A program made the position numbers and the translations under genes. From positions 310,001 through 374,000 of the forward strand of contig NZ_CP012996.1 of assembly GCF_001412655.1 (NCBI RefSeq): a stretch of DNA of 64,000 nt, given 5' to 3'. Origin of the DNA: Pedobacter sp. PACM 27299. Its GTDB lineage: Bacteria; Bacteroidota; Bacteroidia; Sphingobacteriales; Sphingobacteriaceae. Every line of letters starts with the position of its first letter. The stretch's first letter is position 1. Below, piece after piece: positions 21,285 to 44,417 of this stretch. Below the pieces are notes generated by a model. The model saw nothing but the letters and a program-made list of their open reading frames with translations, was not told where the DNA came from and did no database searches.

Positions 21285-21780
21285 GTCATTTGCGGAAAAG
21301 TCGCGATATAAATATCCTAAATTGCTTTCATTAAGTATTACATAATCTTATGTCGTTGATCAACCACCAGAATAACTTATTCTGCAACACTAGGATAGCC
21401 ATACGAATGCCATTGAAAAAGACATTTAAGCAACATATGCTATAACTAACCAAACAGCAACCTAAACCAAACAAACTATGATTACAATCTTTACTCTTTC
21501 TCAGCAATTGCATCTAAATTGTTTGATCCAGATTTAACCCCATTCGATTAAATAGAACAATCAGGTTATTCCATTATTAAATCAGATCATCAGCTCTTTT
21601 CTATAACACGTTTTCCAGGGCTTTATTATCTACCAGATATTTTTTAATGATTAACCCATTCCACATCATTTTGTGGTCAGTGGATTTTTATGGCCTGTTT
21701 TTTAAATCATCAGCGCTCTTGTGATTTATCCGACAACAGGAAATTAACTAAGCTAACAATCTAATAATTAATTAATACGA

Positions 21781-24780
21781 ATGAAAATGGTCCGAATTAT
21801 TGCGAGTGCGTTCTTTGCGGTCCTGGTTTCTGCCCTTTGTTTTGTAAAGGCAGAGGCAAAGCCCCTTTATACCGCTCCACTGAATTACCACAGTATTCTC
21901 ATCAGACAGGATACGGTGCCCGAAGACTCTGCTGAGTTAAAAAGGATAGACAAAGCAATATCCAAGAAAATCAGTAACTCTGCTATACTTAAAGGAACCA
22001 GAGACTCTGTCAATATCAGAGTTGCAGCCTTAAGTCCAAATATTTCCCTCCAGCAAATGCTAAAAGGAAATGTAGCCGGAGTGTACGTTCAGGAAACCAC
22101 CGGAGAGCCCGGCGCTGAACAAAGTATGTTGATCAGAGGACTTTCTGCTCCGATCTTCAGTAGAAAAGACGTATATGCAGTACAGCCTGCAGTGTATTTA
22201 AATGGTATTCCTTTATCTCAGGACAACCCTTTTGCTTTTGAGATCCAAAAATACGACTTCAATCGTATTGGCCCTGCCACCAACCTTTTATCCTTTATAG
22301 ACATCAACGATGTCAACTCTATAGAGGTCATCAAAGACCCGGTAGCATTGGCGAAATTAGGGCCTAATGCAGCCAACGGCGCAATTTGGGTGACTACTAA
22401 AAATGCAAAATCCGGTACCAGACAAATTAGTCTGAACAGTTACTTCGGAATGGTGCAGTCCAGTAAGGTAAATACGGTGAATGGTGCGTATGAAAATGCT
22501 TTCCGCCAGCCTTTCTACCAGAAATATGCGACCGCAGATGACCGCGCTAATTATGTAGGTTATTTAAGAGATTCTACCAGTACCGACTATTATGGGCCTT
22601 CCAACTGGAACGACCTGTATTTCAAAACAGCTCCTGTTTACTCACTTGACTTAAGCTTAACCGGTGGATCTGAACGTGCAAACTTCAGATTTTTTGGCGG
22701 TAATACCCGTAGTGCCGGCAATGCCGATGAAACTGCCTTAAACAGGTATACTGCAGGATTTCAAATCAACATGGCGCCATTTGAATGGTTAACATTGTCT
22801 ACCAAGATCAATGCGACCAGATTAGATAGAAACAGGAATAGAAGCGTGAGAGATCGTTTTGGTGAAACCACTTACTTGACAGATTTTACCACTCCGTTAT
22901 CTCCAAATAAAGCGCTTTACCAAAACTTCTTAGATGAATATAAAAAGGTAATTGACGACAATACCAATACACTTTTACAAGGAGCAGTAGCACTGACACT
23001 GAAACTGGATAAAATCAGCTTCACCACCAGTGTGCTTTTTGACTATATGGAAGGCACCAGGGATGCTTTCTTCCCTTCTACCTTAATGGAAGACAATAAT
23101 TTTGTTTCCAATTATTTTGGGTTTAACCAGCGTGTGATCCTGAATAACGCATTTAGTTATAAATATGATTTAAATAAAGACCACAAGTTCGAATTCGAAT
23201 TGGGGCAGTCTTTACAGGACGATACCTATAAATATAACTACGCGAAAGCTTATAATGGGCCTAACGATTTTATCAAAATCAATCAGGTAGATGGTAATAG
23301 AGACCATGATGATTATTTGGAATCTCCTTATGGTGGATTTTATGTATCCCGTTTCAACGATCGCGAAAAGAGTAAATTACTTTCATTTTATGGCGCAGCA
23401 AGATACCAATACAAAGACCTGCTTACTTTAAGAGCCAGCCTAAGAAATGATGGTTCTTCAAATGGGCAGCCGGATAGTCGCTGGATGATAACGCCAGCAT
23501 TTGGTGCGGAATGGAGCCTTAAAAACCAATTCTTAACCGCAAATAATTTATTCGAAGATTTAAGAGTAACGGCCTCCTGGTCTAGAATCATGAAGCCATT
23601 TAATGACGATCGTTTCGCTGGCGGACCTCAATACAGAGTAAACATGGGATGGAATGAAGAGCCAACTTTACCTACCTATGGTGGTGGTGGTGGTATCATG
23701 AGACCTTATACTTCTGGATGGGTAGGTTACGGCATTGGACTTCCTTATGTAGATCAGTTTAACCTGGGCTTAGAGGGCAGTTTCTTAGAAGGCCGCTTAA
23801 ATGGAGGTATTACCTACTACCAAAAGAACGATAAGAGAATGGTATTGAATTTACCATTGGTGAAGGAAAGTGGTTACGCAAGTATCAATGCTACCGGAAT
23901 GGATGTGAGAAATACCGGAGTAGACCTGACTTTGAATGCGCAAATTCTGAAAAGAGAAAGCAGTTTAAGCTGGACTACAGGTTTCAATATGAATTTCAAT
24001 AAAAACAAACTGACTGCTTTGCCAAACGGATTGAAAGAGCTGATCATCGGCGATCGCCTCCTGAAAGTAGGAGAGTCTATTGGTGCTTTCTGGTTGTATG
24101 AAAATAAAGGAATCTATAATAACAGTGCTGAAATTCCAGTAAATCCAGCCAATGGCAGAGCATTAACATTTGATGGCAATACCTTGAAAGCTGGTGATCC
24201 GATCTGGAAAGATCAAAACGGAGACTATGTGGTAAACGATGCAGATAAAGTATTGAAAGGCAGTCGCCTTCCCAAATTTACTGCAGGGTGGACCAACCAG
24301 TTCAGTTATGCAGGTGTAGACCTGACTTTACAGTTTTTTGCAGCCATCGGACAAAAAGCATTGAATCAATATGATGCCAGCCGTTACGATTTTATCAACA
24401 GAGAAAACTCCAATAACATTGGTTCCATCAGAGAAGTAAACTCCTGGCAGATCAGCAATAACGCAAAAAGTTATACGATTTACAACCCATGGAGTGATGT
24501 GATCCCTTACCGTATCGATCAGGACCTATTCTTAGAAAATGCTTCTTATGTAAAATTAAGAACAGTTTCATTAGGATATGACCTTACGAAAACGAAAGCA
24601 ATCAGAAACATGAAAGCAGACATCAAGAGAATCTATGTATATGTGACTGCCAACAACCTGCTTACCATGTCTCCATTTACAGGTGGTGATCCCGAACTAA
24701 TTGATTATACGGGCATGTACAATGGTTACGGAATGGCTATTCCAAGAACCTACACGCTTGGGGTAAAGTTTGATTTATAG
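21781..24780 (+). CDS. SusC/RagA-type TonB-linked outer membrane transporter, short N-terminus
   Basis: This 999-residue protein has a signal peptide (1 to about 26), then about 55 residues of linker. The TonB-dependent plug begins near residue 80 (L-S-P-N-I-S-L-Q-Q-M-L-K-G-N-V-A-G-V, G-E-P-G-A-E-Q-S-M-L-I-R-G), with SIEVIKDPVALAKLG, then a large barrel ending in Y-T-L-G-V-K-F-D-L. The carboxypeptidase-regulatory-like domain found before the plug in most SusC proteins, and in the second copy at 28153, is missing. There is no STN signalling domain. It would import a sugar or peptide ligand with the SusD protein encoded 20 bp downstream, energised by TonB. It is the first gene of the locus. Confidence 0.93.
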   Translation: MKMVRIIASAFFAVLVSALCFVKAEAKPLYTAPLNYHSILIRQDTVPEDSAELKRIDKAISKKISNSAILKGTRDSVNIRVAALSPNISLQQMLKGNVAGVYVQETTGEPGAEQSMLIRGLSAPIFSRKDVYAVQPAVYLNGIPLSQDNPFAFEIQKYDFNRIGPATNLLSFIDINDVNSIEVIKDPVALAKLGPNAANGAIWVTTKNAKSGTRQISLNSYFGMVQSSKVNTVNGAYENAFRQPFYQKYATADDRANYVGYLRDSTSTDYYGPSNWNDLYFKTAPVYSLDLSLTGGSERANFRFFGGNTRSAGNADETALNRYTAGFQINMAPFEWLTLSTKINATRLDRNRNRSVRDRFGETTYLTDFTTPLSPNKALYQNFLDEYKKVIDDNTNTLLQGAVALTLKLDKISFTTSVLFDYMEGTRDAFFPSTLMEDNNFVSNYFGFNQRVILNNAFSYKYDLNKDHKFEFELGQSLQDDTYKYNYAKAYNGPNDFIKINQVDGNRDHDDYLESPYGGFYVSRFNDREKSKLLSFYGAARYQYKDLLTLRASLRNDGSSNGQPDSRWMITPAFGAEWSLKNQFLTANNLFEDLRVTASWSRIMKPFNDDRFAGGPQYRVNMGWNEEPTLPTYGGGGGIMRPYTSGWVGYGIGLPYVDQFNLGLEGSFLEGRLNGGITYYQKNDKRMVLNLPLVKESGYASINATGMDVRNTGVDLTLNAQILKRESSLSWTTGFNMNFNKNKLTALPNGLKELIIGDRLLKVGESIGAFWLYENKGIYNNSAEIPVNPANGRALTFDGNTLKAGDPIWKDQNGDYVVNDADKVLKGSRLPKFTAGWTNQFSYAGVDLTLQFFAAIGQKALNQYDASRYDFINRENSNNIGSIREVNSWQISNNAKSYTIYNPWSDVIPYRIDQDLFLENASYVKLRTVSLGYDLTKTKAIRNMKADIKRIYVYVTANNLLTMSPFTGGDPELIDYTGMYNGYGMAIPRTYTLGVKFDL

Positions 24781-24800
24781 TTTTAAATAGAATAGAGAAG

Positions 24801-26366
24801 ATGATAAATTTTATAAACAGGAACACAACTTTTAATAAAGCCCTAACCGCTTTGTTATTGCTGGCAGTTTTGTCAGCTAACTTCTCCTGTAAAAAGGCAT
24901 TGGACGTGCAATCAACAAGGTTATCTACTGAAGAAACACAGTGGACTACATTGGAAGATGGTTTATCTGGCGTATTGGGTATGTATGCTTTAATGCGTAC
25001 TGCAATGGCCAGTAACAATACCCACTGGTTAATGGGAGAATTGAGACAAGGAGATTTTCAAGCCACCAACAGGTCTGATTTAAAAGCCATCATTCGTGGA
25101 GATTTGAAAGCTTCTTATCCCATCATGAATGAGATCAGCAACTGGCGGAGATTTTACTCTGTGGTGAATGCTACGAGTTTGTTTATTGAAAGATCAGGAG
25201 AGATCCTTGCAAAAGATAAACGCTATACCAAAGTCAACAATGACGTGGATATTGCACAGGCAAGAGCTTTGAGAGCATTCGCTTATTTTTATATGGTACG
25301 CATCTGGGGTGATGTTCCTTTGCTGACTTCTTCACACGATGGACAGTTTGAAGAACATGAAAGAACCGATCAGAAGAAAGTACTGGCATTTGCAGAATCT
25401 GAATTGTTAGCTGCGGCAAAAGTGCTCCCTATTTATTATGGATGGGCAGATCCTCAGCTTCCAGGTGATTATTACGGTAGAAACCGTGATTACTGGAATG
25501 GGGTACTGTTCACCAAGATTTCTGCTTATGCAATTTTATCGCACATCACTGCATGGCAGGGAAAATATCTGGAAACGGAGATTTACACCAAATTTATCAT
25601 GGAAAATTTCCAGAAAGATGGTTCACAATCTTCTCCAAGGTACATTTCTATGAACGATTTGACTGAAAACGGTTTCTACAGTCCTTTTGCCTTTAAGAGG
25701 GGAGTACAGATTGTTGGTTTCGCCTTCGAATATGGAAATGGTGAAGCAACTGCAAACGGTCACATTGAGCAGCTGACTTTAGCCGCTCCAATTACCCGTA
25801 AGCCAGTACCAGACATGTATGTGCCAAAAGACACGATTCTTAGCGCCTTTAAGGACTTGAAAGATCAACGTTTTGGACTAGATACAATTACTAAACTGTA
25901 CCGCACCAATTACTTTGTGAATTTCAATACAGAAAAACCAATTTTCAAAAAGATTGCGGTTGTCCAAAATGGTGACATCGGTAATGACGGAACTTATGCC
26001 GTGTTCAGTTCAGCGGTATTATTTACCCGTCTAGAAGAATTAACTCTACTTAGGGCGGAAGCACTGGCAGTACTTGGCTTTAGAGATGAAGCGATTAGCT
26101 GGTTAAATACTGCAGCAGCGAAACGTGGTACTACCGCTTTTTCAAATACTTCTAAGGCTGACGTGATGGACGCCATTTTTGCGGAACGCAGAAGGGAGCT
26201 GATGGGCGAAGGATGGCGTTGGTATGATCTGGTAAGATACAATAGAGTCAAACGCAACAACCCTGGTTTTAATAAACTGCTGGATGAAAACGGAATCTAT
26301 TGGCCAATCTCAAGAGATGTGCTGAATGCCAATAAAAAGATCGTTCAAAATAGTTTCTGGAATTAA
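24801..26366 (+). CDS. SusD/RagB-family surface lipoprotein, copy 1
   Basis: This 521-residue lipoprotein has a lipobox ending N-F-S-C-K-K (Cys about 30). The SusD pattern includes Q-A-R-A-L-R-A-F-A-Y-F-Y-M-V-R-I-W-G-D-V-P-L in the TPR region and the C-terminal E-R-R-R-E-L-M-G-E-G-W-R-W-Y-D-L-V-R signature. SusD lids bind glycan at the cell surface over the SusC barrel. It is paired with the 999-residue SusC 20 bp upstream. The ligand is unknown; neighbours point to glycoprotein glycans. Confidence 0.95.
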   Translation: MINFINRNTTFNKALTALLLLAVLSANFSCKKALDVQSTRLSTEETQWTTLEDGLSGVLGMYALMRTAMASNNTHWLMGELRQGDFQATNRSDLKAIIRGDLKASYPIMNEISNWRRFYSVVNATSLFIERSGEILAKDKRYTKVNNDVDIAQARALRAFAYFYMVRIWGDVPLLTSSHDGQFEEHERTDQKKVLAFAESELLAAAKVLPIYYGWADPQLPGDYYGRNRDYWNGVLFTKISAYAILSHITAWQGKYLETEIYTKFIMENFQKDGSQSSPRYISMNDLTENGFYSPFAFKRGVQIVGFAFEYGNGEATANGHIEQLTLAAPITRKPVPDMYVPKDTILSAFKDLKDQRFGLDTITKLYRTNYFVNFNTEKPIFKKIAVVQNGDIGNDGTYAVFSSAVLFTRLEELTLLRAEALAVLGFRDEAISWLNTAAAKRGTTAFSNTSKADVMDAIFAERRRELMGEGWRWYDLVRYNRVKRNNPGFNKLLDENGIYWPISRDVLNANKKIVQNSFWN

Positions 26367-26400
26367 GCTCCTTTCAGTTCATCACCTTAAATAAATTGTA

Positions 26401-27081
26401 ATGAAAAATACTATAAAAAATCTCTTTTTTCTCCCGTTTATGGCAGCGGTAGGTCTATTCATGATCCTGCCTGGATGTAAAAAAACAGATAAAACTTATT
26501 ACGCCTACGAAAATAAGATTCAGGAATTTGATGGGACTGCTTTGGGCTACCTAAAATCACAAACAGGACAGTATGACTCCCTTTTACTGGTGCTTAATCG
26601 CCTGCCTGCTTTGCAAGATTCCCTGGAAAATAAAAACCTGACGGTTTTTGCGGTATCGAATAGAAGTTTTGAATCGGCCATTAAAAACCTGAATGTGACG
26701 AGAAAGATGGAGCTAAAAGCACCAATCTATCTGGCTACGGCAGACCTGTCAGAATTGGAAATAATGGTATGTAAATACCTGATCGCAGGTAAAACAAAGT
26801 CGGATGATTATATGAGCTACTCCGATGGTCTGCATGTAAAGACCTTGCTTCATAACTATCCAATGCACATCCTATATTCAAAAGCAAGTGCTTCAGGACT
26901 GATCAATGGTGGCCCTCAGATTTTAACCTATAGCGATCCAAGAGGTTCCATTTTCGTGAAATTCTGGCAGCGCAGCCCAACCAATGCGGTGAACATTCTG
27001 ACCCATAACGCAATTGTCAATATTCTGGCACCTAGCCATGAATTTGGCTTTAATGAATTCACACAAAGGATTAATAAATAA
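26401..27081 (+). CDS. Fasciclin (FAS1)-domain lipoprotein, copy 1
   Basis: This 226-residue lipoprotein (lipobox I-L-P-G-C-K-K, Cys near 26) has one FAS1-like domain: G-T-A-L-G-Y-L-K-S-Q followed by NLTVFAVSNRSFESAI, which is the FAS1 H1-type segment, and a closing T-H-N-A-I-V-N-I-L-A. FAS1 domains mediate adhesion and are regular partners of SusC/SusD pairs in Sphingobacteria. It lies 34 bp after SusD copy 1, and a relative occupies the same place in the second module (32860). Confidence 0.8.
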   Translation: MKNTIKNLFFLPFMAAVGLFMILPGCKKTDKTYYAYENKIQEFDGTALGYLKSQTGQYDSLLLVLNRLPALQDSLENKNLTVFAVSNRSFESAIKNLNVTRKMELKAPIYLATADLSELEIMVCKYLIAGKTKSDDYMSYSDGLHVKTLLHNYPMHILYSKASASGLINGGPQILTYSDPRGSIFVKFWQRSPTNAVNILTHNAIVNILAPSHEFGFNEFTQRINK

Positions 27082-27092
27082 GGCAATAAGAC

Positions 27093-28121
27093 ATGAACAA
27101 TAAATACTCATTCACATCATTCTATATGCTTTTCATAGGGATTGCAGTAATGATGACTGTATCCTGCAAAAAGGACCTTCCTGATGACCGTTTGGCATTG
27201 GGATCGGATGCCATTTTTACAGCAAGCCTCTATAGCCCTGTATTAGGGCGTAATACCCTTTTTACCGATAATTTTAATTCTGGTACAGGTTCAGGCCTAC
27301 CACTGGATTTTAAGATTATCAATATGCGCAGAAGAGATGGTTCTCCAGCGCCTGAACTGACAGAAAACTTTCCTGTTACCGTCTGGAAGAAAGCTTATAC
27401 CGGTAAGGAGACTTCATTAGAAGAAATTGAATCCAAACGTGCAGTAGAAAATCACCCGCTTTTTGAAATTCGTCAGCACTCTGGTCAGTTTCTTATGTGG
27501 TCAAATTCAAATTCTTCCTTTGTTAAAGCACGTCCTGATTCAGGCTATGTGTTTGATGTGGAAGTTTCTAACTCTGGTGGTAGGAGGTATTTCAGAGATT
27601 TTAAACTGATGCCATATAGAGAACGGGCTTTTGAGCCTTCTAACCTTGATCCAATTACGGGCCAGGCACAATCACTGGGGGTAATGATTTCTGAGATGTC
27701 CAATCTGAAAGGCGAGCGGAGTTTTATCAGCCCTTATGACATTGAAGCTGTTTTTAACAAGAAAAACAGTACAGGTAATTCGCTGACTTTCAAATTTAAA
27801 GATTCCCTGAATAATGCGATCGATCCGGCATTGTTTAACACCACCAAATGGAAAGAATTGGTACATGGATTTAATATGAAAATGACTAAGGAAGCGGTGA
27901 CCTATGATGTGTCTTATCCCATTCCATCGGTGGAATTCCCTACCATTTACACCAATCCTAGTGGAACCAGATCAAGAGCCGTATTCCGATATGAAAGACT
28001 CGGTTACGGAAACAGTTTGATCCAGGCATATATGGCTATGGACTTCAGTATCTATGAACGTGGAGATTGGGAAATCATCTTCAAGTTTAAAGGAGAGCGT
28101 CCAAAATTTACCAATGACTAA
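27093..28121 (+). CDS. Surface lipoprotein of unknown function (possibly DUF5007)
   Basis: This 342-residue lipoprotein has a lipobox at T-V-S-C-K-K-D (Cys about 25). It is predicted to be beta-rich, with a region F-T-D-N-F-N-S-G-T-G-S-G-L-P-L-D-F and many Tyr/Phe-rich strands. I recognise the position and general look from Sphingobacterial SusC-SusD-fasciclin loci, where a protein of this size is labelled DUF5007, but I am not certain of the family. It is the last gene of the first module, 31 bp before SusC copy 2, and probably helps to bind the same ligand at the cell surface. Confidence 0.6.
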   Translation: MNNKYSFTSFYMLFIGIAVMMTVSCKKDLPDDRLALGSDAIFTASLYSPVLGRNTLFTDNFNSGTGSGLPLDFKIINMRRRDGSPAPELTENFPVTVWKKAYTGKETSLEEIESKRAVENHPLFEIRQHSGQFLMWSNSNSSFVKARPDSGYVFDVEVSNSGGRRYFRDFKLMPYRERAFEPSNLDPITGQAQSLGVMISEMSNLKGERSFISPYDIEAVFNKKNSTGNSLTFKFKDSLNNAIDPALFNTTKWKELVHGFNMKMTKEAVTYDVSYPIPSVEFPTIYTNPSGTRSRAVFRYERLGYGNSLIQAYMAMDFSIYERGDWEIIFKFKGERPKFTND

Positions 28122-28152
28122 CCAAGGTTATAATTTTTAATATAAATCAGAT

Positions 28153-31100
28153 ATGAAGTATCTAATTATAGTGTTTTCTTTACTCCTGCTCTGCGGCTTT
28201 AATAAAGAGGTATTTGCGCAGCAGAAGCAAGTGATCATACAGGGAACTGTTTTTGATAAGGCCGAAAAAATCGGAATGCCCGGCGTTAACATTCAGTCCG
28301 GGAGCCCATTGAAAAGTGTGGGGGTGACGAATGAGAAGGGACAATTTTCTGTGAGTGTTCCAGAAAATGCAGAACTGTTTTTTAAATATATTGGCTATAC
28401 CACGGTTAGAAGAAAATCGGATAGCAAGTCAAAAATGAGTATCTATTTAGCGGAAGAGCAAAGTGCGCTAAAAGAAACGGTAATTATTGGTTATCAGACC
28501 AAAACCAAGGAAACGAGTACAGGATCAAGTGTGGTAATCACCGCCAAGATGATCCAGGATGTACCGGTTGCCAACTTAATGGAATTGATCCAGGGTAAAG
28601 TTCCTGGTTTGAACGTGCAGAACAACAATGGATCTCCAGGGATGCGTGGATCTATTAACTTACGTGGTTTATCTAGTATCAATGTTCAGGAATCTGGAGG
28701 ATCAGCCTTTTTAACACCAACATCACCATTATTTGTAATCGATGGGGTGCCGATTGAGGATACTGAGACTTTTGATTATGGTTTCCAGCAGTCGGGTCCA
28801 GGTATTAGTCCACTATCCCTGATTCCAGCGGAAGATGTGGAAAGAATTGAGATCCTTAAGGACGCGCAGGCGACCGCATTATACGGTTCCCGCGGGGCTT
28901 ATGGGGTGATCCTGATCACTACCAAACGTGGAAATTCAAAAGTACCGATCATCAAATATGTATCCAACTATTTCATGAACACTATTCCTAAATTAAGAGA
29001 TGTGATCGGTGGTAGAGGAGAACGTGATATGCGTGTCAATCAGATCTTAATGAACGACAGTAGTTACTACCATGCGATGCAAATGATCAATGGAAGTCCT
29101 TTTCTGGCAGATAGTTTGAACTCTTTTTACAACAATTCTACAGATTGGCAGTCGTATTTCTTCCGCAGAACTTATAACCAGTCGCACAACGTAGACATCT
29201 CCGGTGGTGACAACACGTTCAACTATAAAGTGAACACTGGTTATTACGATGAAAAAGGAATTGTGGAGAACACGGGACTGAGCCGTGTAAGTTTAAATAT
29301 GAACATGCAGTACCAGCCAAGTCAGAAGTTCCGGATGTTTGCCAGTATTAGTAATGCCCTGGCTAAAAACAGTAAAGGAAGCGGAAACGGCTTGCTGCAA
29401 AAAAAGGCAGCTGATGGCGGTTCGCAATCTTCGTTGCTTCCGGCGCCAAGTCAATATACTTCGGTAAATTCTGTACTGGCGAGTAAGCAGACCCAAAATG
29501 AGAATAAGACTATTAATATGGTGGCCAATATGGACTTACGTTACGAGTTTCTGAAAAATCTGGCCGCTTCTACTAGCTTTAGTTATACGTATGCTTCCGG
29601 AACGGAGGATAATTTTGTACCTGCGGCGATCAATAACAATGCTGGAGAACTATACCTCTACAACGATAAAAAAGTAGCCTTATACAACAGAAATACGCTG
29701 GCTTATAACCTTTCAATTGCTGAAAAACACAACATTAATGCAACGGTATTTAATGAGTTAACCTCCACCAAGTTTTCTGCAGATGCAATGATCAACAGAA
29801 ATACCGTGAATGATTATATTCATGGCCCTACTATGGGTTACAGTTATCCTTTCTCTCCGGGTGGTACACTGGATAATTTCTTTGACCGTCGTTCTGTGGC
29901 TTTTGCTGGATCGTTCTCTTATAACTATATGCAGAAATATGTATTGGATTTAAGTTACCGTCTGGATGGAACTTCTACCAACGGACCTGAGTCCGGTTAT
30001 GCTAAAAATCCTTCTATAGGCGCAAGGTGGAACTTTAGTAAGGAAGATTGGTTATCAAAAATTAGCTGGCTGGATTACGCTTCGCTAAGGGCAAGTTATG
30101 GTAGTAACATTGTGCCTACAGGAACCATTTACGATGTGTATGGCCGTTATGTTTCTTCCGGTAATTACAATAACAATCCAACGGTTAGTCTGGATCTGAG
30201 AACTGTGCCAAACATTGCATTAGAGCCAAAATCTACTACCACTTATAACCTTGGTTTCGACGCGGGAGTCTTTAACAACAGAGTAAATGTTGTTTTTGAT
30301 ACTTACTGGAAATATGTTGACAATGAGCTGAGAGGAAAAGAATTGGCAACAATGAACTCTTTTGAGAAGATTTCTACTAATGAGATGAGTTTTATGGTTC
30401 GCGGTTATGAACTTGCCATTAACTTTAAACCGCTGTCAAACAACAGTAAGTTGAACTGGACGATCGGCATCAACGGGGATTACCGTAAGGAAATCTTAAC
30501 TGGTTTGCCAGATGGTGTTAGACAATTCATGATAAAAGATGCAAATACTGGTCAGAACATTTTATACCGTTTAGGTAGAAACACCCTTTCTAACGTATTG
30601 CTAAATACAAATGGTGTGTATTCGAATACCGCTGATGTGCCTGTAGATCCAATTACTGGATTAAGGTACCGTACCGGAACTGGTGGTAATGTAAAATACT
30701 TCCAGGGTGGTGATCCAAGATGGACTGATTTAAATGGAGATTATGTATTGGATGATCGTGACCTGGTATCTGTAGGTACTGCGCAGCCTTCCATGGTTGG
30801 AGGTATTAACTCCAGCATGATTTACAAGCAGTTTAGTTTGAATATCAACCTTTCCTATACTTACTTGAGAGATATTTTGAACAATGCTGCGGCCCAGCGT
30901 TTTCAGAACTTTGGTTTTCCAACTTCACTGAAATCATTGACGCCTCTGGTAGAATATAACTTCTGGATTAATCCAGGTGATGTAGCCACTTATCCTAATC
31001 CTTTTGATTTTACTCGTCAGGCGGTGATTAGACCTTTCCGTTACGACCAGACCCTGTTCCAGGAAGATGGCTCTTACCTGAAAATTAATGACGTGACCTT

Positions 31101-31299
31101 CGGTTATACCTTCAAAAAAGAGTTGACAAAACGTTTCGGAATTACCGGATTACGCTTGTACCTGACTGGAAGAAACCTATATACGTTTACCAACTACTCA
31201 GGTCCGAATCCGGAGAGTGTAGATGCCTTGGGTAGAGATGATTCAGGAGGATATCCAAATAGCCGTTCTTATACCTTCGGTTTAAATGTTCAGTTCTAA
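28153..31299 (+). CDS. SusC/RagA-type TonB-linked outer membrane transporter, full-length
   Basis: This 1048-residue protein has a signal peptide (to A-Q at about 23) and a carboxypeptidase-regulatory-like domain at about 27-100 (V-I-I-Q-G-T-V-F-D-K to Y-I-G-Y-T-T-V). The plug begins with T-V-I-I-G-Y-Q-T and V-P-V-A-N-L-M-E-L-I-Q-G-K-V-P-G-L, followed by I-E-I-L-K-D-A-Q-A-T-A-L-Y-G-S-R-G. A 22-strand-type barrel ends in T-F-G-L-N-V-Q-F. The TonB box region is not obvious. It differs from copy 1 in keeping the N-terminal domain. It pairs with the SusD gene 18 bp downstream. Confidence 0.96.
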   Translation: MKYLIIVFSLLLLCGFNKEVFAQQKQVIIQGTVFDKAEKIGMPGVNIQSGSPLKSVGVTNEKGQFSVSVPENAELFFKYIGYTTVRRKSDSKSKMSIYLAEEQSALKETVIIGYQTKTKETSTGSSVVITAKMIQDVPVANLMELIQGKVPGLNVQNNNGSPGMRGSINLRGLSSINVQESGGSAFLTPTSPLFVIDGVPIEDTETFDYGFQQSGPGISPLSLIPAEDVERIEILKDAQATALYGSRGAYGVILITTKRGNSKVPIIKYVSNYFMNTIPKLRDVIGGRGERDMRVNQILMNDSSYYHAMQMINGSPFLADSLNSFYNNSTDWQSYFFRRTYNQSHNVDISGGDNTFNYKVNTGYYDEKGIVENTGLSRVSLNMNMQYQPSQKFRMFASISNALAKNSKGSGNGLLQKKAADGGSQSSLLPAPSQYTSVNSVLASKQTQNENKTINMVANMDLRYEFLKNLAASTSFSYTYASGTEDNFVPAAINNNAGELYLYNDKKVALYNRNTLAYNLSIAEKHNINATVFNELTSTKFSADAMINRNTVNDYIHGPTMGYSYPFSPGGTLDNFFDRRSVAFAGSFSYNYMQKYVLDLSYRLDGTSTNGPESGYAKNPSIGARWNFSKEDWLSKISWLDYASLRASYGSNIVPTGTIYDVYGRYVSSGNYNNNPTVSLDLRTVPNIALEPKSTTTYNLGFDAGVFNNRVNVVFDTYWKYVDNELRGKELATMNSFEKISTNEMSFMVRGYELAINFKPLSNNSKLNWTIGINGDYRKEILTGLPDGVRQFMIKDANTGQNILYRLGRNTLSNVLLNTNGVYSNTADVPVDPITGLRYRTGTGGNVKYFQGGDPRWTDLNGDYVLDDRDLVSVGTAQPSMVGGINSSMIYKQFSLNINLSYTYLRDILNNAAAQRFQNFGFPTSLKSLTPLVEYNFWINPGDVATYPNPFDFTRQAVIRPFRYDQTLFQEDGSYLKINDVTFGYTFKKELTKRFGITGLRLYLTGRNLYTFTNYSGPNPESVDALGRDDSGGYPNSRSYTFGLNVQF

Positions 31300-31317
31300 T
31301 CTCAATCCTATTTAAAG

Positions 31318-32823: not shown

Positions 32824-32859
32824 TGATTAGCGGATTTTGCGCTATTAATAAAGAAAAAC

Positions 32860-33648: not shown

Positions 33649-33686
33649 ACAGGATTATTTAGAAAGGACTATTAATAGAAATAAAG

Positions 33687-35294: not shown

Positions 35295-35310
35295 TAGTTG
35301 CACCTTATAA

Positions 35311-37098: not shown

Positions 37099-37133
37099 GG
37101 GCTGCTATTGTTTACAATATTTAAATTTTCAAT

Positions 37134-39038
37134 ATGAAAAGCTTTAATTTTTTATTCAAAATCAGCTGTTTTATTTTAATCATGGGCTTGGCCTCTTGTA
37201 AAAAATATGGATACAGTTTTGAGGATGGAACGGATAAACCAAATGATAATCCGCTAACAAATATACAGGTCGATACGGCGATGTCCAGAGTAGATCGAAG
37301 CTTGTATCCCAGGGCACGTGTTTTTCCAGGCTTAATGGAGCCGCAGGAGATTCGTCTGAAAGACCAGAAGTTGATGATGAATTTCAACTATGTGGATGTA
37401 CAGCCTAGAATGCTAAGGATGAACATCACTCCAGATCCGCAGTTCAGTACAGGCTTTTGGGCTCCTGCGGGCGAGCTGATCAAAATTGTATTGCCAGCAG
37501 GTATAGAAGGACTAAGTGTTCAGGTAGGTGTGCATACAGATAATTTGTCGGCCATCTCGCCATTGCGAAGAGATCCTTTAATTACCACCAGAAAGCAGTT
37601 GTTTCCTGGAGTAAATTATATCCGTAACCTTTATGGCGGAACGGTTTATATCAATGCTTCGGTAGCCATTACAGCACCGGTAGAGGTAACCTTCTCAGGT
37701 GTAGTAAAGGCACCTGATTTTATATTGGGCGAAACTAATGATGCAGATTTTGCAAAGGCAGTGGTGGAATCTTCTGTACCATGGTTAGAGCTTAGAAGTA
37801 AAAATGTGATCTTCAGTTTACCAAGAGATTTGTTTCTCCGCTACCCACTAATGAACGCAACAGCTTTGATGAGAGAATGGGATGTCATTATTGACAAAGA
37901 TTATTATGAGTGGATGGGTTTATCAGCAACAACCACTGATATGACACAAAGAAGTCCGGATCTGCCTTGGCGCGTGATTTTAGATATACAGCCTTCCGTA
38001 GGTTATGCGCATTCAAACTATCCTGTAGTGGCACAGCTGGACGACAACTGGTTTACTGAGTTTACTACTTTGGCCGAGTTAAAAAATGGGGGTAACTGGG
38101 GTTTCTTCCATGAGATCGGACACAATTGTCAGCAGCCAGGAATGTGGAGCTGGGAAGGTTTAGGAGAAACCAGTAACAATCTTTTTGTATTTAAAGGTGC
38201 AAACAGAAATGGTACCATAGCCAGACACCCTGCATTATTGGAGCAGTTCCCTAAATCTCTGGCCTGGGCTGCAGTAAGCTCTACACCAAATCTAGCGAAA
38301 AACTTCAATGACAACGCCGATGCTTTCTTTAAGATTCTTCCATTTGTACAGATTTTTGAGAAACTAGGTTATAATGCCATGACTTATTTATACAAGGCAG
38401 CAAGAACAGCAGATCGCTATTCTATGAATGATCAGGATCGTCAGGACTTTGTGTACGAAAAGTTCTCTGAGTATGCGAAGCTGGATTTACAGACTTTCTT
38501 TGATTCGTATAACATCAGACTGAGTTCATTGTCAAGAAAAAAAATCTCTGGCCTTTACCCTGCCTTAACCACACAAATCTGGACTTATAACCCGATTACG
38601 AAAACCGGTGGTACGGCTGCGATTGTGCCTACCTATACGGCTAGTTCTTCACAAAGCAATGAAGGTTCTGTGGCTGCGATGTTTGATGGGAGTACCGCTA
38701 CGTATTGGCATTCGCAATATAGCCCAACCCCTGACGCAACCACTAAAAAGCCATTCACCATTAACATGGATATGAAAAAGCTGGTTTCAGCAAAAGGGAT
38801 GTCTTTCACACCAAGAATAAACTCTGGGGCTGAAAGACCAAAAACAACAGAGGTTTATACGAGTCCGGACAATGTGAACTTTACTCTAGTGGGTACAGTG
38901 GTGATTGCAAATGCGGCTACGCCTACTACGATGACTTTTACGGATCCTCAGAAGGCAAGGTTCTATCGCGTGGTGATTAAAGATATGTGGTCTACAGGTG
39001 ATTATGCCTCCCTTTCGGAAATCTCCTTTATTAATTAA
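37134..39038 (+). CDS. M60 (mucin-type) metallopeptidase lipoprotein with F5/8C domain
   Basis: This 634-residue lipoprotein has a lipobox at G-L-A-S-C-K-K-Y. The zinc site HEIGH is at 326-330, followed by Q-Q-P-G-M-W-S-W-E-G-L-G-E with Glu345, the pattern of M60/enhancin-like peptidases. The preceding A-G-E-L-I-K-I-V-L-P-A-G and L-I-T-T-R-K-Q-L-F-P-G are the N-terminal part of the same fold. Residues from about 515 form an F5/8 type C (CBM32-like) domain with F-D-G-S-T-A-T-Y-W-H-S. M60 enzymes cleave heavily O-glycosylated proteins and are surface-anchored in Bacteroides. It lies between the two phosphatase-like genes. It is the key enzyme for guessing the locus target. Confidence 0.9.
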   Translation: MKSFNFLFKISCFILIMGLASCKKYGYSFEDGTDKPNDNPLTNIQVDTAMSRVDRSLYPRARVFPGLMEPQEIRLKDQKLMMNFNYVDVQPRMLRMNITPDPQFSTGFWAPAGELIKIVLPAGIEGLSVQVGVHTDNLSAISPLRRDPLITTRKQLFPGVNYIRNLYGGTVYINASVAITAPVEVTFSGVVKAPDFILGETNDADFAKAVVESSVPWLELRSKNVIFSLPRDLFLRYPLMNATALMREWDVIIDKDYYEWMGLSATTTDMTQRSPDLPWRVILDIQPSVGYAHSNYPVVAQLDDNWFTEFTTLAELKNGGNWGFFHEIGHNCQQPGMWSWEGLGETSNNLFVFKGANRNGTIARHPALLEQFPKSLAWAAVSSTPNLAKNFNDNADAFFKILPFVQIFEKLGYNAMTYLYKAARTADRYSMNDQDRQDFVYEKFSEYAKLDLQTFFDSYNIRLSSLSRKKISGLYPALTTQIWTYNPITKTGGTAAIVPTYTASSSQSNEGSVAAMFDGSTATYWHSQYSPTPDATTKKPFTINMDMKKLVSAKGMSFTPRINSGAERPKTTEVYTSPDNVNFTLVGTVVIANAATPTTMTFTDPQKARFYRVVIKDMWSTGDYASLSEISFIN

Positions 39039-39062
39039 GTTTTTTTGCTAGAAAATAAGACA

Positions 39063-40769
39063 ATGAGGAAATATATAAATACAAACAAGGTTTTTGCCTT
39101 TTTCGGAATGGCTTTACTGCTGGCCAGCACTTTTACTGCCTGCAAGAAATATCCAAATCCTGCACCTTATTTTGAAGAGTATGGAGAGCTTGAGGTGAAA
39201 TCCTCGAGAAGGATCCTGCTCATCAGTATTGATGGAACAGATGGTGGGGAACTACAAAAGATAGCCCCAACAAATATCATGAGCCTGATTAAAACAGGAA
39301 AGTATAGTTTTAACAGGGGGCCGGAATTGGTCTCTACACAGGCTTCGACTTGGGCAAGTATGCTGACCGGTGCTTCAAGTACCAAGCATGGCATCTCTGA
39401 TAACAGCTACAGACCAGTATCTGAACCAGGTAAGGAACATACTGCGCCACCATATTTTCCAAATATGGTGGCGAGAATCCTGGATATTAAACCAGAATTG
39501 AAAACAGCAGCCATTACTTCTGATGCGGCATTAAATAAATACCTGATTGAAGCGGATCATCGCGTGTTAGCGGCTAATGATGGAGTGATTAAGGATTCTA
39601 CGCTAGCGATTTTAACCAACGAGAATCCAAATTTGGTGATCGCAAGCTTTAAAGATGTGGAGACCGCAGGTGCTGCAGGAGGATATGCTGCAAGTGTACC
39701 TGCGTATAAGGCGGCAATTGAGAAAACCGATACTTATATCGGTGAAATGGTGGCTGCGATAAAAAAGAGGAAGAACTACAGTAATGAAGATTGGCTGATT
39801 ATTGTGACGACCAATAAAGCTGGAACTGAAGCGAATCCAAAAGCAGGATTTATCATTACTTCAAACCCGGCTTTGAAAGAGGGAATGTTAACAAAAGTGG
39901 GTTTCAATGGAATGAGATTTGGCAAAGTAGGTTTAGTTGGAACGATAAAAAATGACAATGGCCTTTATGATGCAGGTAAAAACAAGGACTTCACGGTACA
40001 GGTACAGATGAAGTTTAATGTGATTACTACCTATCCTAGATTTCTTTCGAAAGGCACGCCATTGGTAAGTGATGCCATTACTGGCTGGACCATGCTACAG
40101 AATGATGGCAGTACCTGGGCAGTAATTTTTGGAGGAAAAGCTGCTGGTGGAAATGGGAAAAGACAACTGGTTGGTACTTCTGTAGCAGGTGGGGGCTGGC
40201 ATACTTTAACCTTTACGGTAAAAACTGTAGGCGCTACCAGGATTGCTACTGTGTTTACAGATGGGATCCCTGGACAAACTTTGGATATCACCAATACTAT
40301 CGACCTGAGCAGTCCTACTACACCATTGAGCATAGGTGGGGTAGAAGCTTCAACCAGCAGCAACTCTGATTTTTATGCCGCAGATCTGCAGTATTTTAAT
40401 GTGGCTTTGGATCCTGCTGTCATTAAAGCAAATGTTGCGCTGAAAGACGTCACTCAACATCCTAACTACAGTAACTTGGTAGGATACTGGCCATTTGATG
40501 ATGGTGGCGGTGCAGTGGTTGCGAATAAAGCACCTATCGGTTTTAACCTGAATATTGCAGGACCTAGCAGTTGGGCTGCTTTAGGGAATGACATCCCAGT
40601 GAGCAGAGCCCCGCAAACCATTAGCGGCGTGTCTATTGTGCCAACTAGTCCGGATGTGGCTTCTCTTTGCCTTTATTGGTTGAAAATTCCAATCAAAGAC
40701 GAATGGAAAATGGACGGAAATCCATGGATTTCAAACTATGAGATTGAATTCCTGAAAAAAATTAATTAA
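39063..40769 (+). CDS. LamG-bearing alkaline phosphatase superfamily lipoprotein, probably inactive (copy 2)
   Basis: This 568-residue lipoprotein (lipobox F-T-A-C-K-K-Y) parallels the 35311 gene: I-L-L-I-S-I-D-G-T-D-G-G with Asp57, then S-T-W-A-S-M-L-T-G-A-S-S-T-K-H-G-I, and a LamG domain from about 305 (F-T-V-Q-V-Q-M to V-G-Y-W-P-F-D-D-G). The region for the last metal pair reads T-T-N-K-A-G (Asn251, Lys252) instead of D-H-G, and the GH element is A-G-A-A-G-G. The same losses in both copies point to a conserved non-catalytic use. The frame is open six codons upstream (TTG 39045), but the ATG fits the signal peptide. Confidence 0.75.
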   Translation: MRKYINTNKVFAFFGMALLLASTFTACKKYPNPAPYFEEYGELEVKSSRRILLISIDGTDGGELQKIAPTNIMSLIKTGKYSFNRGPELVSTQASTWASMLTGASSTKHGISDNSYRPVSEPGKEHTAPPYFPNMVARILDIKPELKTAAITSDAALNKYLIEADHRVLAANDGVIKDSTLAILTNENPNLVIASFKDVETAGAAGGYAASVPAYKAAIEKTDTYIGEMVAAIKKRKNYSNEDWLIIVTTNKAGTEANPKAGFIITSNPALKEGMLTKVGFNGMRFGKVGLVGTIKNDNGLYDAGKNKDFTVQVQMKFNVITTYPRFLSKGTPLVSDAITGWTMLQNDGSTWAVIFGGKAAGGNGKRQLVGTSVAGGGWHTLTFTVKTVGATRIATVFTDGIPGQTLDITNTIDLSSPTTPLSIGGVEASTSSNSDFYAADLQYFNVALDPAVIKANVALKDVTQHPNYSNLVGYWPFDDGGGAVVANKAPIGFNLNIAGPSSWAALGNDIPVSRAPQTISGVSIVPTSPDVASLCLYWLKIPIKDEWKMDGNPWISNYEIEFLKKIN

Positions 40770-40801
40770 CAGCTGAATAGTTAAAAAATAACTTGAATAC
40801 G

Positions 40802-41671
40802 ATGAAAGGAAAGAGCCTTTATTTATTTGCGATATGTACTGTTATGACGGTTGCGTCATGTAAAAAGAGTAGTGTGGCTCCGATTGGGCCGGTAGAGCCA
40901 CCAGTAGTCGAAGTAGTGGAAGATCCAAATTATGAGATAGTGGCTAATACTGTTACGGTGTCCGCAGTATTGAACGGCGCAAAATTTAACTGGGTAAATG
41001 AGGCTAAAAAACCAGTATATCTTAAATTTAAATATGTGCAGGATGCTTTGCCTAAGGAAGTGGTTATAGCCACAAGTTCGGATGCAGCTGGTACAGCAAC
41101 CATTCCAATAGCGGCTTTAACGACTTTTAATGTGTCTGTAACTAATGTTGGCGGGCAAGCGGTGAGTACCAGAACTATGGCTATTCTTCCTTTGTTAAAC
41201 CCCGAAACAAAATTGGCCAAAACGGGCTGGCATGCAAGTGCTTCCAGTGAAATCAATGATGAAGACAATGAGTTTAATGGGGCAGAAAATATTGTGGATG
41301 ATGTGACTGTGATCAGTAAATCGTCTTCCAGCCCATCTTTCTGGCAAACAGATTATAATGCAGATCCGATGCTGATTTACCCGCATTGGTTGATCGTAGA
41401 TATGAAAACGGCAGAGAAGATTACTAAAATTGGTCTGAATGCACATACCGATAAAAATCAAGGTTTCAATACCTTTAGAATTGAAGGCAGTGTGGATGGT
41501 GTTGACTTCGATGATATTGGGGGTTCACTAAAGAATTTTGCACCAGCAGTAACCTCAGAACAATTGTATTCAGTAGTGACTCCAGTGCCAATCAGATACG
41601 TAAAAATCACTTTAATTAGTGGTTCTGATTATCCTTGTTTGGCCAACTTTGAAGCCTACGTAAGAAAATAG
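40802..41671 (+). CDS. Surface lipoprotein with Ig-like and F5/8 type C domains
   Basis: This 289-residue lipoprotein has a lipobox at T-V-A-S-C-K-K-S. A Pro-rich linker is followed by an Ig-like domain (residues about 40-130, V-T-V-S-A-V-L-N-G-A-K to R-T-M-A-I-L-P-L). A discoidin-like F5/8C domain then shows W-H-A-S-A-S-S-E-I, H-W-L-I-V-D-M-K-T-A-E-K-I-T-K-I-G-L and V-R-Y-V-K-I-T-L, read here as I-R-Y-V-K-I-T. Such domains bind galactose-like or GlcNAc-like sugars. It is the last gene before the strong terminator at 41693. The start is the ATG, 9 bp into a longer TTG frame. Confidence 0.75.
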   Translation: MKGKSLYLFAICTVMTVASCKKSSVAPIGPVEPPVVEVVEDPNYEIVANTVTVSAVLNGAKFNWVNEAKKPVYLKFKYVQDALPKEVVIATSSDAAGTATIPIAALTTFNVSVTNVGGQAVSTRTMAILPLLNPETKLAKTGWHASASSEINDEDNEFNGAENIVDDVTVISKSSSSPSFWQTDYNADPMLIYPHWLIVDMKTAEKITKIGLNAHTDKNQGFNTFRIEGSVDGVDFDDIGGSLKNFAPAVTSEQLYSVVTPVPIRYVKITLISGSDYPCLANFEAYVRK

Positions 41672-41692
41672 TTATTATTAACCCTATTATTG

Positions 41693-41726
41693 TGGGCCCC
41701 TGGATCTATCCTGGGGCCCATTTTAA
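41693..41726 (+). terminator. Intrinsic terminator closing the SusC/D operon
   Basis: The stem TGGGCCCC (41693-41700) pairs with GGGGCCCA (41713-41720) with three more inner pairs, then TTTTAATAT. It sits 21 bp after the F5/8C gene and 40 bp before the GH84 gene. Confidence 0.85.
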
Positions 41727-41765
41727 TATAGATCCCCATTGTTAAAAAAGAAACAAAAGAAGAAG

Positions 41766-44288
41766 ATGCTAAACTTTAAAAGACGACTGATCCCTATTTT
41801 TTTATGTGTACTTACTCAAGTGTCTTTCGCACAAGAGCTGCCGCGGATAACGGTATATCCTAAGCCCCATGAATTGCTGACGGAACCTGGATCATTTTCA
41901 TTGGAACAAGCACTGTATGTGAAACCTGGAACTTTAAATCCAGAACTGCAAAGCTTTTTAAGCAATGTGCTCAAGATGGACGGTGGAAAAAAAGCATTGC
42001 CATTAACGGTTTTGAAAAGTAAATCTCCGGTGCAGCGTTCAGGTGCTTATCAATTGATCATCAATAAAGAAGGCATTAAGATCATTGCTACGGATGACCG
42101 GGGCGTATTTTATGCCGCACAGACTTTAATCCAAATGACTAAGGGTAAAACTTCAGTTCCTTATGTAAAAGTTACTGATTATCCGGATGTTCCTTTTCGC
42201 GGTACAGTAGAAGGCTTTTATGGAGAGCCCTGGACACAGCAGGATAGAATTGCGCAGCTGCGTTTTTATGGTCAGCTGAAATTGAATACCTATATCTATG
42301 GTCCTAAAGATGACCCTTATCATTCTTCACCAAACTGGAGGTTACATTATCCGGAAAAGGAAGAGGCAGAAATTAAGCAATTGGTACAGGAGGCAAAAAA
42401 GAATTATGTAGATTTTGTATGGGCCATTCACCCTGGGAAAGACATCAAATGGAACCTGGAAGACAGTACAGCGGTGCTTAAAAAGTTTGAAATGATGTAC
42501 GGATTAGGGGTTCGCTCTTTTGCAGTATTCTTTGATGACATTTCTGGTGTGGGTACTGATGCGGCCAAACAAGCGGGCCTATTGAATTATATCCAGTACC
42601 AGTTTGTGAACAAGAAAAAGGATGTGACGCCATTGATCATGTGCCCTACAGAATATAATAAAAGTTGGTCTGATCCGAAGCCAGGTACCTACCTTGATAT
42701 TTTAGGCGAAAAGTTGGATCCGGCCATCCATATTATGTGGACAGGGAATACCGTAGTCGCTGATATTTCGAAGGAAGGCTTGGAATGGGTCAATAAACGC
42801 ATTCGCAGACCTGCATTCGTATGGTGGAATTTCCCGGTTAGTGATTATGTGCGTGACCATTTATTAATGGGGCCATCCTATGGAATTGATACTGATGCCC
42901 AGCAGGATATGTCTGGTTTCGTCTCTAATCCGATGGATAAAGCGGAGCCTTCGAAGACTGCTATATTTGGCGTAGCAGGTTATACTTGGAACATGAAGAA
43001 TTATGATCCGGAACAGGCATGGCTGGCTTCTCACCGTTACATCATGCCGGAGGCGGCAGAAGCTTTCCAATTGTTTAATGCCCATAATAGTGATCCGGGA
43101 GCCAATGGCCACCGTTATAGAAGGACAGAGTCTGTAGAAATCAAGCCTTATACCCTTGCTTTTCTGAAGTCGCTGAGTGAAGGAGGGTATTCGATTGCCG
43201 ATGCACAGCGCCTTAAAAAAGAATTTGAGGGGATGATTGCTGCAGCTAGAGATATTCCCTTAAAGAGCCAGAATAAAAGGTTAGTGGAGCAGATTAGCCC
43301 ATGGCTTCAGCAATTTGATTTACTGGGAAGAGCGGGGATTGCAGTAATGGGTTTAGCGGAAGACTGGAACAATAAATCCTTTGCTGCGGCCTGGGGTAAA
43401 TACCTGCAGACTGAGCGGTATCTGGATGAAATGACTGACCTGGATAAAAGGATGAACTTGAATCCTTATCAGCCAGGCGTTAAAACAGGCTCCCTGGTGA
43501 TGACCCCTTTTGTAAAGTCGGTCTTACTGATGATTGGTCAGCAAATGGCTCAGGGGAATAGGTTGGCTGCTGTGAAAGCTACGGCTAGTCATCAGGAACA
43601 GACTACGCTGTTCAGTAATGCGGCCAAATTGAAAAGTCAACCGTTACAGATTGGCAATCAAAGCGTAGCTATTGCGCCGATCTTGGAAAACATTATCTTG
43701 AAGTCTGAGGAGTATTTCGGCTTACGTTTGCACCCGAATTTAACACCTTTGGCTTTACAGTTTAACCTGGAATCGGCTTCGCTTGGTGCCTGGGGGATGT
43801 TTGAAAGTTCTGCTGATGGCATCAACTGGAAATCATTCCCTGTGAAAGAGAAAAAAGGGAATGGTAAGGCAAGTCAGCTTGGTAATGCGGGAGGACAGTA
43901 TATTCGCTTTAGAAATCAATCTGATCAGGCACAGAATTTTTACCTCAAATTGTTTAAATTGGACGTGAAGACGAAGAATGAAACAGACAATGGAGTGTAT
44001 GTATTAGATGGAAATTTAGCAACTTTTAGTACTTTTTCTAAGAATGAACCGGGAATGCTGCATTTACCAAAAGATTTTCAGGAAGCTGATTTAAGATGGT
44101 TACTGCGTCTGAACGGGCAATCTGTAACCGTCTTTTCAAAAGATAAGCGTGGTAAAGAGTTGGTGATCTATCAGGGTGATTCAGATCTTATTAAAATCGA
44201 GAAGTCTGCGTTGAAGAATATAGATACTTTGTACTTTGAAACGGATTCGGCTGAGCCCCTGCGTATTTACGAAATCACTAAATATTAG
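41766..44288 (+). CDS. GH84 beta-N-acetylglucosaminidase (O-GlcNAcase/hyaluronidase-like)
   Basis: This 840-residue exported protein has a signal peptide ending V-S-F-A-Q. An N-terminal GH20b-like domain (P-R-I-T-V-Y-P-K-P-H-E-L) is followed by a GH84 barrel: F-R-G-T-V-E-G-F-Y-G-E-P-W, L-N-T-Y-I-Y-G-P-K-D-D-P-Y-H and the catalytic Asp pair D257-D258 in V-F-F-D-D-I-S-G. The closest described relative I can name is Bacteroides BT_4395, which removes terminal beta-GlcNAc by substrate assistance. Mainly helical and beta-sandwich C-terminal parts follow. The frame extends nine codons upstream to a TTG (41739). It follows the operon terminator, so it may have its own promoter, though little room is left for one. 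Confidence 0.93.
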   Translation: MLNFKRRLIPIFLCVLTQVSFAQELPRITVYPKPHELLTEPGSFSLEQALYVKPGTLNPELQSFLSNVLKMDGGKKALPLTVLKSKSPVQRSGAYQLIINKEGIKIIATDDRGVFYAAQTLIQMTKGKTSVPYVKVTDYPDVPFRGTVEGFYGEPWTQQDRIAQLRFYGQLKLNTYIYGPKDDPYHSSPNWRLHYPEKEEAEIKQLVQEAKKNYVDFVWAIHPGKDIKWNLEDSTAVLKKFEMMYGLGVRSFAVFFDDISGVGTDAAKQAGLLNYIQYQFVNKKKDVTPLIMCPTEYNKSWSDPKPGTYLDILGEKLDPAIHIMWTGNTVVADISKEGLEWVNKRIRRPAFVWWNFPVSDYVRDHLLMGPSYGIDTDAQQDMSGFVSNPMDKAEPSKTAIFGVAGYTWNMKNYDPEQAWLASHRYIMPEAAEAFQLFNAHNSDPGANGHRYRRTESVEIKPYTLAFLKSLSEGGYSIADAQRLKKEFEGMIAAARDIPLKSQNKRLVEQISPWLQQFDLLGRAGIAVMGLAEDWNNKSFAAAWGKYLQTERYLDEMTDLDKRMNLNPYQPGVKTGSLVMTPFVKSVLLMIGQQMAQGNRLAAVKATASHQEQTTLFSNAAKLKSQPLQIGNQSVAIAPILENIILKSEEYFGLRLHPNLTPLALQFNLESASLGAWGMFESSADGINWKSFPVKEKKGNGKASQLGNAGGQYIRFRNQSDQAQNFYLKLFKLDVKTKNETDNGVYVLDGNLATFSTFSKNEPGMLHLPKDFQEADLRWLLRLNGQSVTVFSKDKRGKELVIYQGDSDLIKIEKSALKNIDTLYFETDSAEPLRIYEITKY

Positions 44289-44321
44289 GCGGATTTTATT
44301 ACATTTTAAAACAATAAATAG

Positions 44322-44411: not shown

Positions 44412-44417
44412 ATAAAT

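Follow-up and report, generated by a model that had tools for sequence, protein, structure and literature searches.

Which substrate is served by a locus that combines two SusC/SusD pairs with an M60 peptidase is the question raised by part of the genome of Pedobacter sp. PACM 27299, studied here as a window (the whole stretch of 64,000 nucleotides, positions 310001-374000 of the complete 6,147,290-base genome). Thirteen genes lie between 21781 and 44288 of this window, and both the list of open reading frames (ORFs) and the sequence place them all on the + strand, as a preliminary description of this DNA had stated. On our best reading the cassette is a single unit of twelve genes at 21781-41671 (also called the block below), with the GH84 gene outside it. 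We consider the chances about even that this cassette serves to bind an O-glycosylated protein on the cell surface, that the M60 peptidase cleaves it and that import proceeds through SusC/SusD, a plant arabinogalactan protein (AGP) being the most likely kind of substrate and GH84 a neighbour. The features are the following.

20384-21780, + strand: leader, 1.4 kb upstream of SusC1, with no ORF of 100 or more amino acids and no adjoining regulator gene
21781-24780, + strand: SusC1, TonB-dependent transporter (Plug 42.5 bits; TIGR04056 417.1 bits, cut-off 368.25; no CarbopepD domain matched)
24801-26366, + strand: SusD1 lipoprotein (nearest solved relative 3hdx)
26401-27081, + strand: FASa, FAS1-like lipoprotein (no Pfam match over cut-off; a relative passes Fasciclin)
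27093-28121, + strand: DUF5007 lipoprotein (Pfam DUF5007, 303.7 bits)
28153-31299, + strand: SusC2 (CarbopepD_reg_2 and plug)
31318-32823, + strand: SusD2 lipoprotein (nearest solved relative 3iv0)
32860-33648, + strand: FASb, FAS1-like lipoprotein (Fasciclin below threshold)
33687-35294, + strand: lipoprotein with DUF5008 and a DUF5122 (delta-60) propeller (Pfam)
35311-37098, + strand: PDE1 lipoprotein (degenerate alkaline-phosphatase-superfamily domain, LamG, DUF4983)
37134-39038, + strand: M60 peptidase lipoprotein (HEIGH...E, M60-like N, C-terminal F5/8C)
39063-40769, + strand: PDE2 lipoprotein (degenerate alkaline-phosphatase-superfamily domain, DUF4983; the listed ORF begins at TTG 39045)
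40793-41671, + strand: F5/8C lipoprotein (Pfam F5/8C; divergence like that of the block)
41692-41721, + strand: terminator-like hairpin with compensatory changes, the proposed 3' boundary of the cassette
41766-44288, + strand: GH84, signal peptide without lipobox, judged to lie outside the cassette

The genes of the cassette follow one another in the order SusC1-SusD1-FASa-DUF5007-SusC2-SusD2-FASb-DUF5008/propeller-PDE1-M60-PDE2-F5/8C and are separated by 11-38 bases through the F5/8C gene (ATG starts being assumed for PDE2 and the F5/8C gene), while 94 bases separate the latter from GH84. Profile searches of 145 genomes of the genus found DUF4983 in 82 and M60 in 75, and 20 loci with M60 beside DUF4983 were picked, 16.5-20 kb being fetched on each side; this choice fixes M60 and DUF4983, and only the remaining genes form an independent test of the order. 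The synteny check proposed in the preliminary description had a clear outcome: the eleven genes from SusC1 through PDE2 are collinear in all 20 Pedobacter-group loci, with 29-98% amino acid identity to the window (in G117 and G087 one SusC is split across two frames), and the same eleven recur in G184a and G398, two loci from a sister genus within the family. The arrangement therefore exceeds chance. At least 45 M60 genes, in at least 41 of the 145 genomes, have a DUF4983 gene no more than 3.5 kb away, a lower bound drawn from 55 hand-picked M60 rows, ten of which have no listed DUF4983 neighbour; in the host genome M60 is matched once and DUF4983 twice, once on either side of M60. The locus is best described as a conserved surface cassette belonging to the window's family, with Bacteroides thetaiotaomicron likely to have a counterpart.

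The wider distribution was surveyed in 395 genomes of the class, where DUF5007 occurs in six, all of the window's family; B. thetaiotaomicron is annotated with DUF5007 and is not among the six, so this draw of genomes misses carriers. The starch SusD model gave five matches in the 395 genomes, none over the cut-off. DUF4983 was found in nine genomes outside the family: in the five such loci read over 8-20 kb a PDE-like match was the only one, and the other four were seen across 2-3 kb. Searched by name, DUF4983 turned up no mention in the literature.

The M60 protein (PF13402, 143.8 bits, cut-off 25.8) carries the motif and the C-terminal F5/8C domain that had been reported for it, and its best segment is 96% identical to the M60 of Pedobacter polysacchareus. 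The two SusC/SusD pairs were likewise borne out by Pfam and TIGR04056. Other gene calls needed amendment. The delta-60 lipoprotein does contain a DUF5122 propeller, and DUF5008 had been overlooked in the same gene (33687), as had the DUF5007 gene at 27093 and the separate F5/8C lipoprotein at 40793. Of the two proteins called FAS1 lipoproteins, that at 32860 falls short of the cut-off (18.1 bits, with 22 required) and that at 26401 is unmatched, although the Fasciclin model (PF02469) recognises, at 30.7 bits, a relative 39% identical to the latter (L146:15130-16248); in the Protein Data Bank no relative was found for DUF5007 or FASb. Where nine consecutive non-SusC genes had been credited with a lipobox, ten non-SusC genes have one by eye, and a strict lipobox pattern recognises eight of these ten, SusD1 and PDE1 being missed for a deviation at position -3.

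Ten putative lipoproteins would place nearly the whole cassette at the cell surface, and the earlier view of a surface, import-coupled locus is supported. An O-glycosylated protein would be bound there by the SusD proteins and by seven further lipoproteins that resemble binding proteins (two FAS1-like, DUF5007, the DUF5008 propeller, two apparently dead phosphatase-fold proteins and one F5/8C). The M60 peptidase, equipped with an F5/8C domain of its own, would be the single enzyme, cleaving the protein backbone next to glycans; glycopeptides or released chains may then enter through the two SusC/SusD pairs, to be dismantled by enzymes encoded elsewhere. No glycan-cleaving enzyme was recognised by Pfam in 21781-41671. 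PL27 is not known to be covered by a Pfam model. The characterisation of the locus as protein-first holds, and more strongly with GH84 set aside, because M60 is the sole recognisable enzyme with an intact motif.

Among the presumed binding proteins, PDE1 and PDE2 deserve particular consideration. They had been described as two LamG proteins; LamG (PF13385) is present in PDE1 and unmatched in PDE2, and both carry an N-terminal PF01663 domain (cut-off 23; PDE1 30.5 bits, PDE2 43.6 bits) and DUF4983 (cut-off 26.4; 27.7 and 38.7 bits, respectively). Alignments were made of 45 proteins and of both paralogue sets of 21 loci, 84 rows that include a few repeated proteins, the metal-ligand columns being set from one control (L111) and the nucleophile register from an ENPP5 alignment. 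All four ligands of DxxxH and DH together are found in none of the 84 rows: the His of DxxxH occurs in none, the Asp of DH in one and the His of DH in 34, the DH metal pair being mostly N-K, N-R or N-H. At the nucleophile position Thr stands in three and Ser in one of the 82 rows read (two further rows are unread), and the window has N in PDE1 and Q in PDE2. By eye, the first metal Asp (DG) is kept in 21 of 21 PDE1 and 20 of 21 PDE2 proteins, being lost in some A1 rows of the 45-protein alignment; the site is hence not wholly erased, which speaks against complete loss of function. We rejected PDE1 and PDE2 as active phosphodiesterases or sulfatases on the ligand loss; they are probably binding proteins, apparently dead enzymes, and residual or altered activity is possible. 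PF01663 and weak alignments to ENPP4, ENPP5 and ENPP7 liken them to nucleotide pyrophosphatase/phosphodiesterases, from which they differ in that metal ligands and nucleophile are replaced and LamG and DUF4983 added. Several degenerate relatives are labelled in their source with names like 'Type I phosphodiesterase'.

As to what is bound and cut, the solved relatives of the SusD proteins are informative: SusD1 matches 3hdx at 479 bits with the next chain at 77, and SusD2 matches 3iv0 at 343 bits with the next at 89. The 3hdx sequence agrees at 99% with a B. thetaiotaomicron SusD, and from the accession numbers we take 3hdx to be BT0269 and 3iv0 to be BT0273, the species of the latter being assumed in the same way. 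One relative of the locus (G012) ends in an NHL lipoprotein, GH29, GH88 and DUF2264, the last of which we take to be GH154; BT3677, in turn, presumably belongs to a second arabinogalactan polysaccharide utilization locus (PUL). According to the sections of the literature consulted, here and below, BT3677 is the founding member of GH154 (PMC12269599) and BT3674-87 are listed under arabinogalactan (PMC3243724, Table 2), the same table giving BT0262-90 as an arabinogalactan PUL. Within it, BT0268 is a SusC linked with arabinogalactan (PMC5061871; PMC6874557), BT0263 frees rhamnose from gum arabic (PMC8377490), and the annotation runs SusD, hypothetical, DUF5007, SusD and DUF5124 for BT0269-75 and carbohydrate-binding, alkaline phosphatase family and hypothetical for BT0277-79 (PMC10434189). 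Because of this annotated order, of the SusD matches and of the GH29, GH88 and DUF2264 genes of relatives, a plant arabinogalactan protein seems the more likely substrate than mucin. GH29, GH88 and DUF2264 fit arabinogalactan side chains, and the GH2 and GH27 of another relative (G143) fit an arabinogalactan protein as well, but both sets fit other glycoproteins too.

Several observations weigh against this assignment. GH88 and GH154 also serve chondroitin in the M60-bearing PUL25 of Bacteroides caccae (PMC12269599), the GH2 and GH27 that together with a second M60 end another locus (G143) suit several glycoproteins, the host's own two DUF2264 genes lie away from the locus, and a Pfam scan of 29 window proteins showed no GH43. 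BT0277 is labelled 'carbohydrate-binding', not M60 (PMC10434189), and the likeness to the B. thetaiotaomicron locus is one of annotation order, not of gene-by-gene sequence comparison. Moreover, five loci (G112b, G503b, G184b, G087b and G067b) keep the nine genes from SusC1 through PDE1 with no M60 or PDE2 after them, so the nine-gene chassis needs no peptidase and is in wider use than its peptidase. Three of these loci, scanned by Pfam, continue with a PA14 or F5/8C lipoprotein and then a PKD-F5/8C lipoprotein; not all of the F5/8C matches reach the cut-off. In G067, G087 and G112, among the M60-less loci (L144, L145, L146, L158 and L161), another SusC-type gene lies downstream.

These nine-gene variants are what would be expected if the cassette imported a plain plant polysaccharide, such as type II arabinogalactan or another pectin side chain, with M60 an accessory that releases the glycan from protein, or dispensable; the B. 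thetaiotaomicron locus, too, responds to arabinogalactan, a polysaccharide preparation (PMC5061871; PMC6874557; PMC3243724). We regard this explanation as unlikely, though it keeps a real share of the probability: the block holds no recognised endo-glycanase, and the M60 motif, HExGHN...E, is retained in 21 of 21 loci.

The GH84 gene is where an AGP-type and a mucin-type reading part most clearly. The preliminary description had leaned towards mucin and had counted GH84 as a working part, and its catalytic D257-D258 pair is indeed kept (in the numbering from ATG 41766); the protein scores 394.5 bits with PF07555 and 654.7 bits across 723 residues with BT_4395 of B. thetaiotaomicron, the BtGH84 O-GlcNAcase, with which it shares the DD pair and from which the case differs in that GH84 is here judged to lie outside the cassette. 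Were the locus devoted to a mucin-type or other glycoprotein bearing N-acetylgalactosamine (GalNAc) or N-acetylglucosamine, GH84 would be its trimming enzyme. It is intact, on the same strand and 94 bp behind the block, and of six genomes among the 145 with this GH84 (E ≤ 1e-100) five have it adjoining a block, a position which, taken alone, suggests association and counts against GH84 as a mere neighbour. Most of what is known about M60-like peptidases concerns mucinases from microbes of mucosal surfaces, and BT4244, an M60-like peptidase with measured activity, is a mucin-type O-glycopeptidase (PMC11992087), which tells against an AGP as well; some solved relatives of the window M60 bear the name O-glycopeptidase, and the GH2 and GH27 of G143 recall the GH2 of the BT4240-50 locus. 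A GH84 relative in G086 (L110, 59%) has an internal TAA, in a genome without an M60 match.

On the other hand, the F5/8C lipoprotein comes next in 7 of the 20 loci and GH84 in 4, so that GH84 is missing from 16. Before it stands the hairpin at 41692-41721 (-23.2 kcal/mol, 47 bases folded), followed by TTTTAATAT; in five related genomes (n=5) 96.9% of cells are paired and five pairs are changed on both sides, a number of two-sided changes reached by 2 of 500 shuffles; slid versions give 0. We read this hairpin as the putative 3' end of the cassette. The generic terminator scan omits it, the loop of the simple stem exceeding the limit of the scan, and over 26000-45000 generic promoter and terminator predictions stay at chance level (43 vs. 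47.4 and 16 vs. 16.4, respectively). With its restricted distribution, the hairpin before it and an identity discordant with that of the block (see below), GH84 was rejected as a functional member and is judged to be a neighbour, not a component. As none of the window proteins scanned with Pfam is a sialidase, a GH109 or an intact sulfatase, and the nearest described gene order is, in the sections consulted, that of an arabinogalactan PUL, the emphasis on mucin is weakened and a mucin-type locus appears quite improbable.

The discordance emerges from pairwise identities of the block (21781-41671) and of the flanking genes downstream (45508-51839; metK, at 45508, lies downstream of the block in 10 of the 20 loci). 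Between the window and G098 the flank is 98% identical, GH84 92% and the block 54%; between the window and G008 the values are 91% for the flank and 74% for the block; G008 and G126 show 97% and 55%, and G030 and G114 97% for the flank, 83% for GH84 and 57% for the block. The F5/8C gene follows the block (60% to G098, 69% to G008). In 60-base bins, DNA identity between the window and G098 is 48-81% from 41040 to 41760 and 81-95% beyond 41760, bar one bin of 66%. In G059, with which nothing has been exchanged, flank, block and GH84 are 98, 97 and 89% identical to the window; GH84 hence evolves somewhat faster than the flank and falls even below the block in this pair, which weakens the argument, and the case for discordance is carried by the remaining pairs.

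A higher rate of evolution in surface genes is not sufficient by itself to account for these values because the order of relatedness is reversed, G008 being nearer than G098 in the block. They appear best explained by in-place exchange of the whole block of about 20 kb between Pedobacter species through recombination in the shared flanks; ancient duplicates that were later lost offer a possible alternative. Exchange invites the thought that the substrate differs by lineage, the blocks being specificity variants on one chassis, as their identity of about 55% between flanks 91-98% identical and the variable terminal genes (GH84; GH29-GH88-DUF2264; GH2-GH27-M60; PA14/PKD) might suggest. The whole chassis stays collinear, however, and divergence alone shows no change of ligand, so that we give this explanation a slim chance. 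The fullest form of the AGP reading, in which M60 would be an O-glycopeptidase for hydroxyproline-rich AGPs of plants, the two dead phosphatases surface glycan receptors and the 20 kb receptor-importer block something that Pedobacter species swap in place as a specificity cassette, is put forward tentatively, being possible and on balance doubtful.

Around the locus, no regulator gene was found with Pfam among the genes of 14673-46758. The promoter consensus TTTG-N-TAnnTTTG has six matches vs. 3.5 expected, none of them ahead of SusC1. Immediately upstream lies an efflux operon of the TolC-AcrB-HlyD type (14673-20383); its HlyD gene likewise stands left of the block in G059 and also in G114, where a single small ORF intervenes. 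ExbD-type (44812-45447) and ExbB-type (50296-51138) genes lie downstream, where they belong to the block's conserved flank. Elsewhere in the window, a single ORF on the - strand (872-2791) fuses domains of the glucosamine-6-phosphate isomerase and PIG-L de-N-acetylase types, and a tandem pair of tRNA-Asp genes with identical scores occupies 9778-10000.

A widespread soil cassette that matches a gut arabinogalactan locus in gene order suggests that M60 peptidases may be used on plant glycoproteins, and could furnish tools for cutting AGPs. Lipoproteins with a degenerate phosphatase fold would represent a little-recognised class of surface binding proteins, and the loci in which block and flank disagree make up a natural collection of exchanged PULs in which the determinants of specificity could be probed. 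With the boundary of the locus corrected, GH84 is unsuitable for inferring the substrate. Searches of the literature for Pedobacter, M60 and polysaccharide utilization returned nothing related, and the cassette is not described in the consulted parts of PMC6874557, PMC12269599, PMC3243724, PMC11214529 and PMC8002723.

Compared with known systems, the locus has the SusC/SusD adjacency of Sus-type PULs, twice over, and lacks the glycan-cleaving enzymes of its own and the linked regulator that define them. The mucin PUL BT4240-50 of B. thetaiotaomicron shares a surface M60 with CBM32, SusC/SusD and a separate CBM32 lipoprotein; it differs in having one SusC/SusD pair, a GH2, a GH109 and a GalNAc kinase, and no DUF5007, DUF5008, FAS1 or PDE genes are named for it in the consulted part of PMC11992087. 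PUL25 of B. caccae, active on chondroitin, shares M60-like genes and pairs GH88 with a GH154 dehydratase, comparable to the GH88 and DUF2264 of G012, and differs by a PL35 lyase and a GH109, the Pedobacter cassette being unmentioned in the sections consulted (PMC12269599). Closest in gene order is BT0262-BT0290 of B. thetaiotaomicron, whose core, BT0268-BT0279, agrees with the cassette in the published annotation, BT0276 and the second SusC being unnamed in the part consulted; this locus includes the PL27 BT0263 and the hybrid two-component system (HTCS) regulator BT0267, whereas the Pedobacter block has neither a carbohydrate-active enzyme nor an adjacent regulator.

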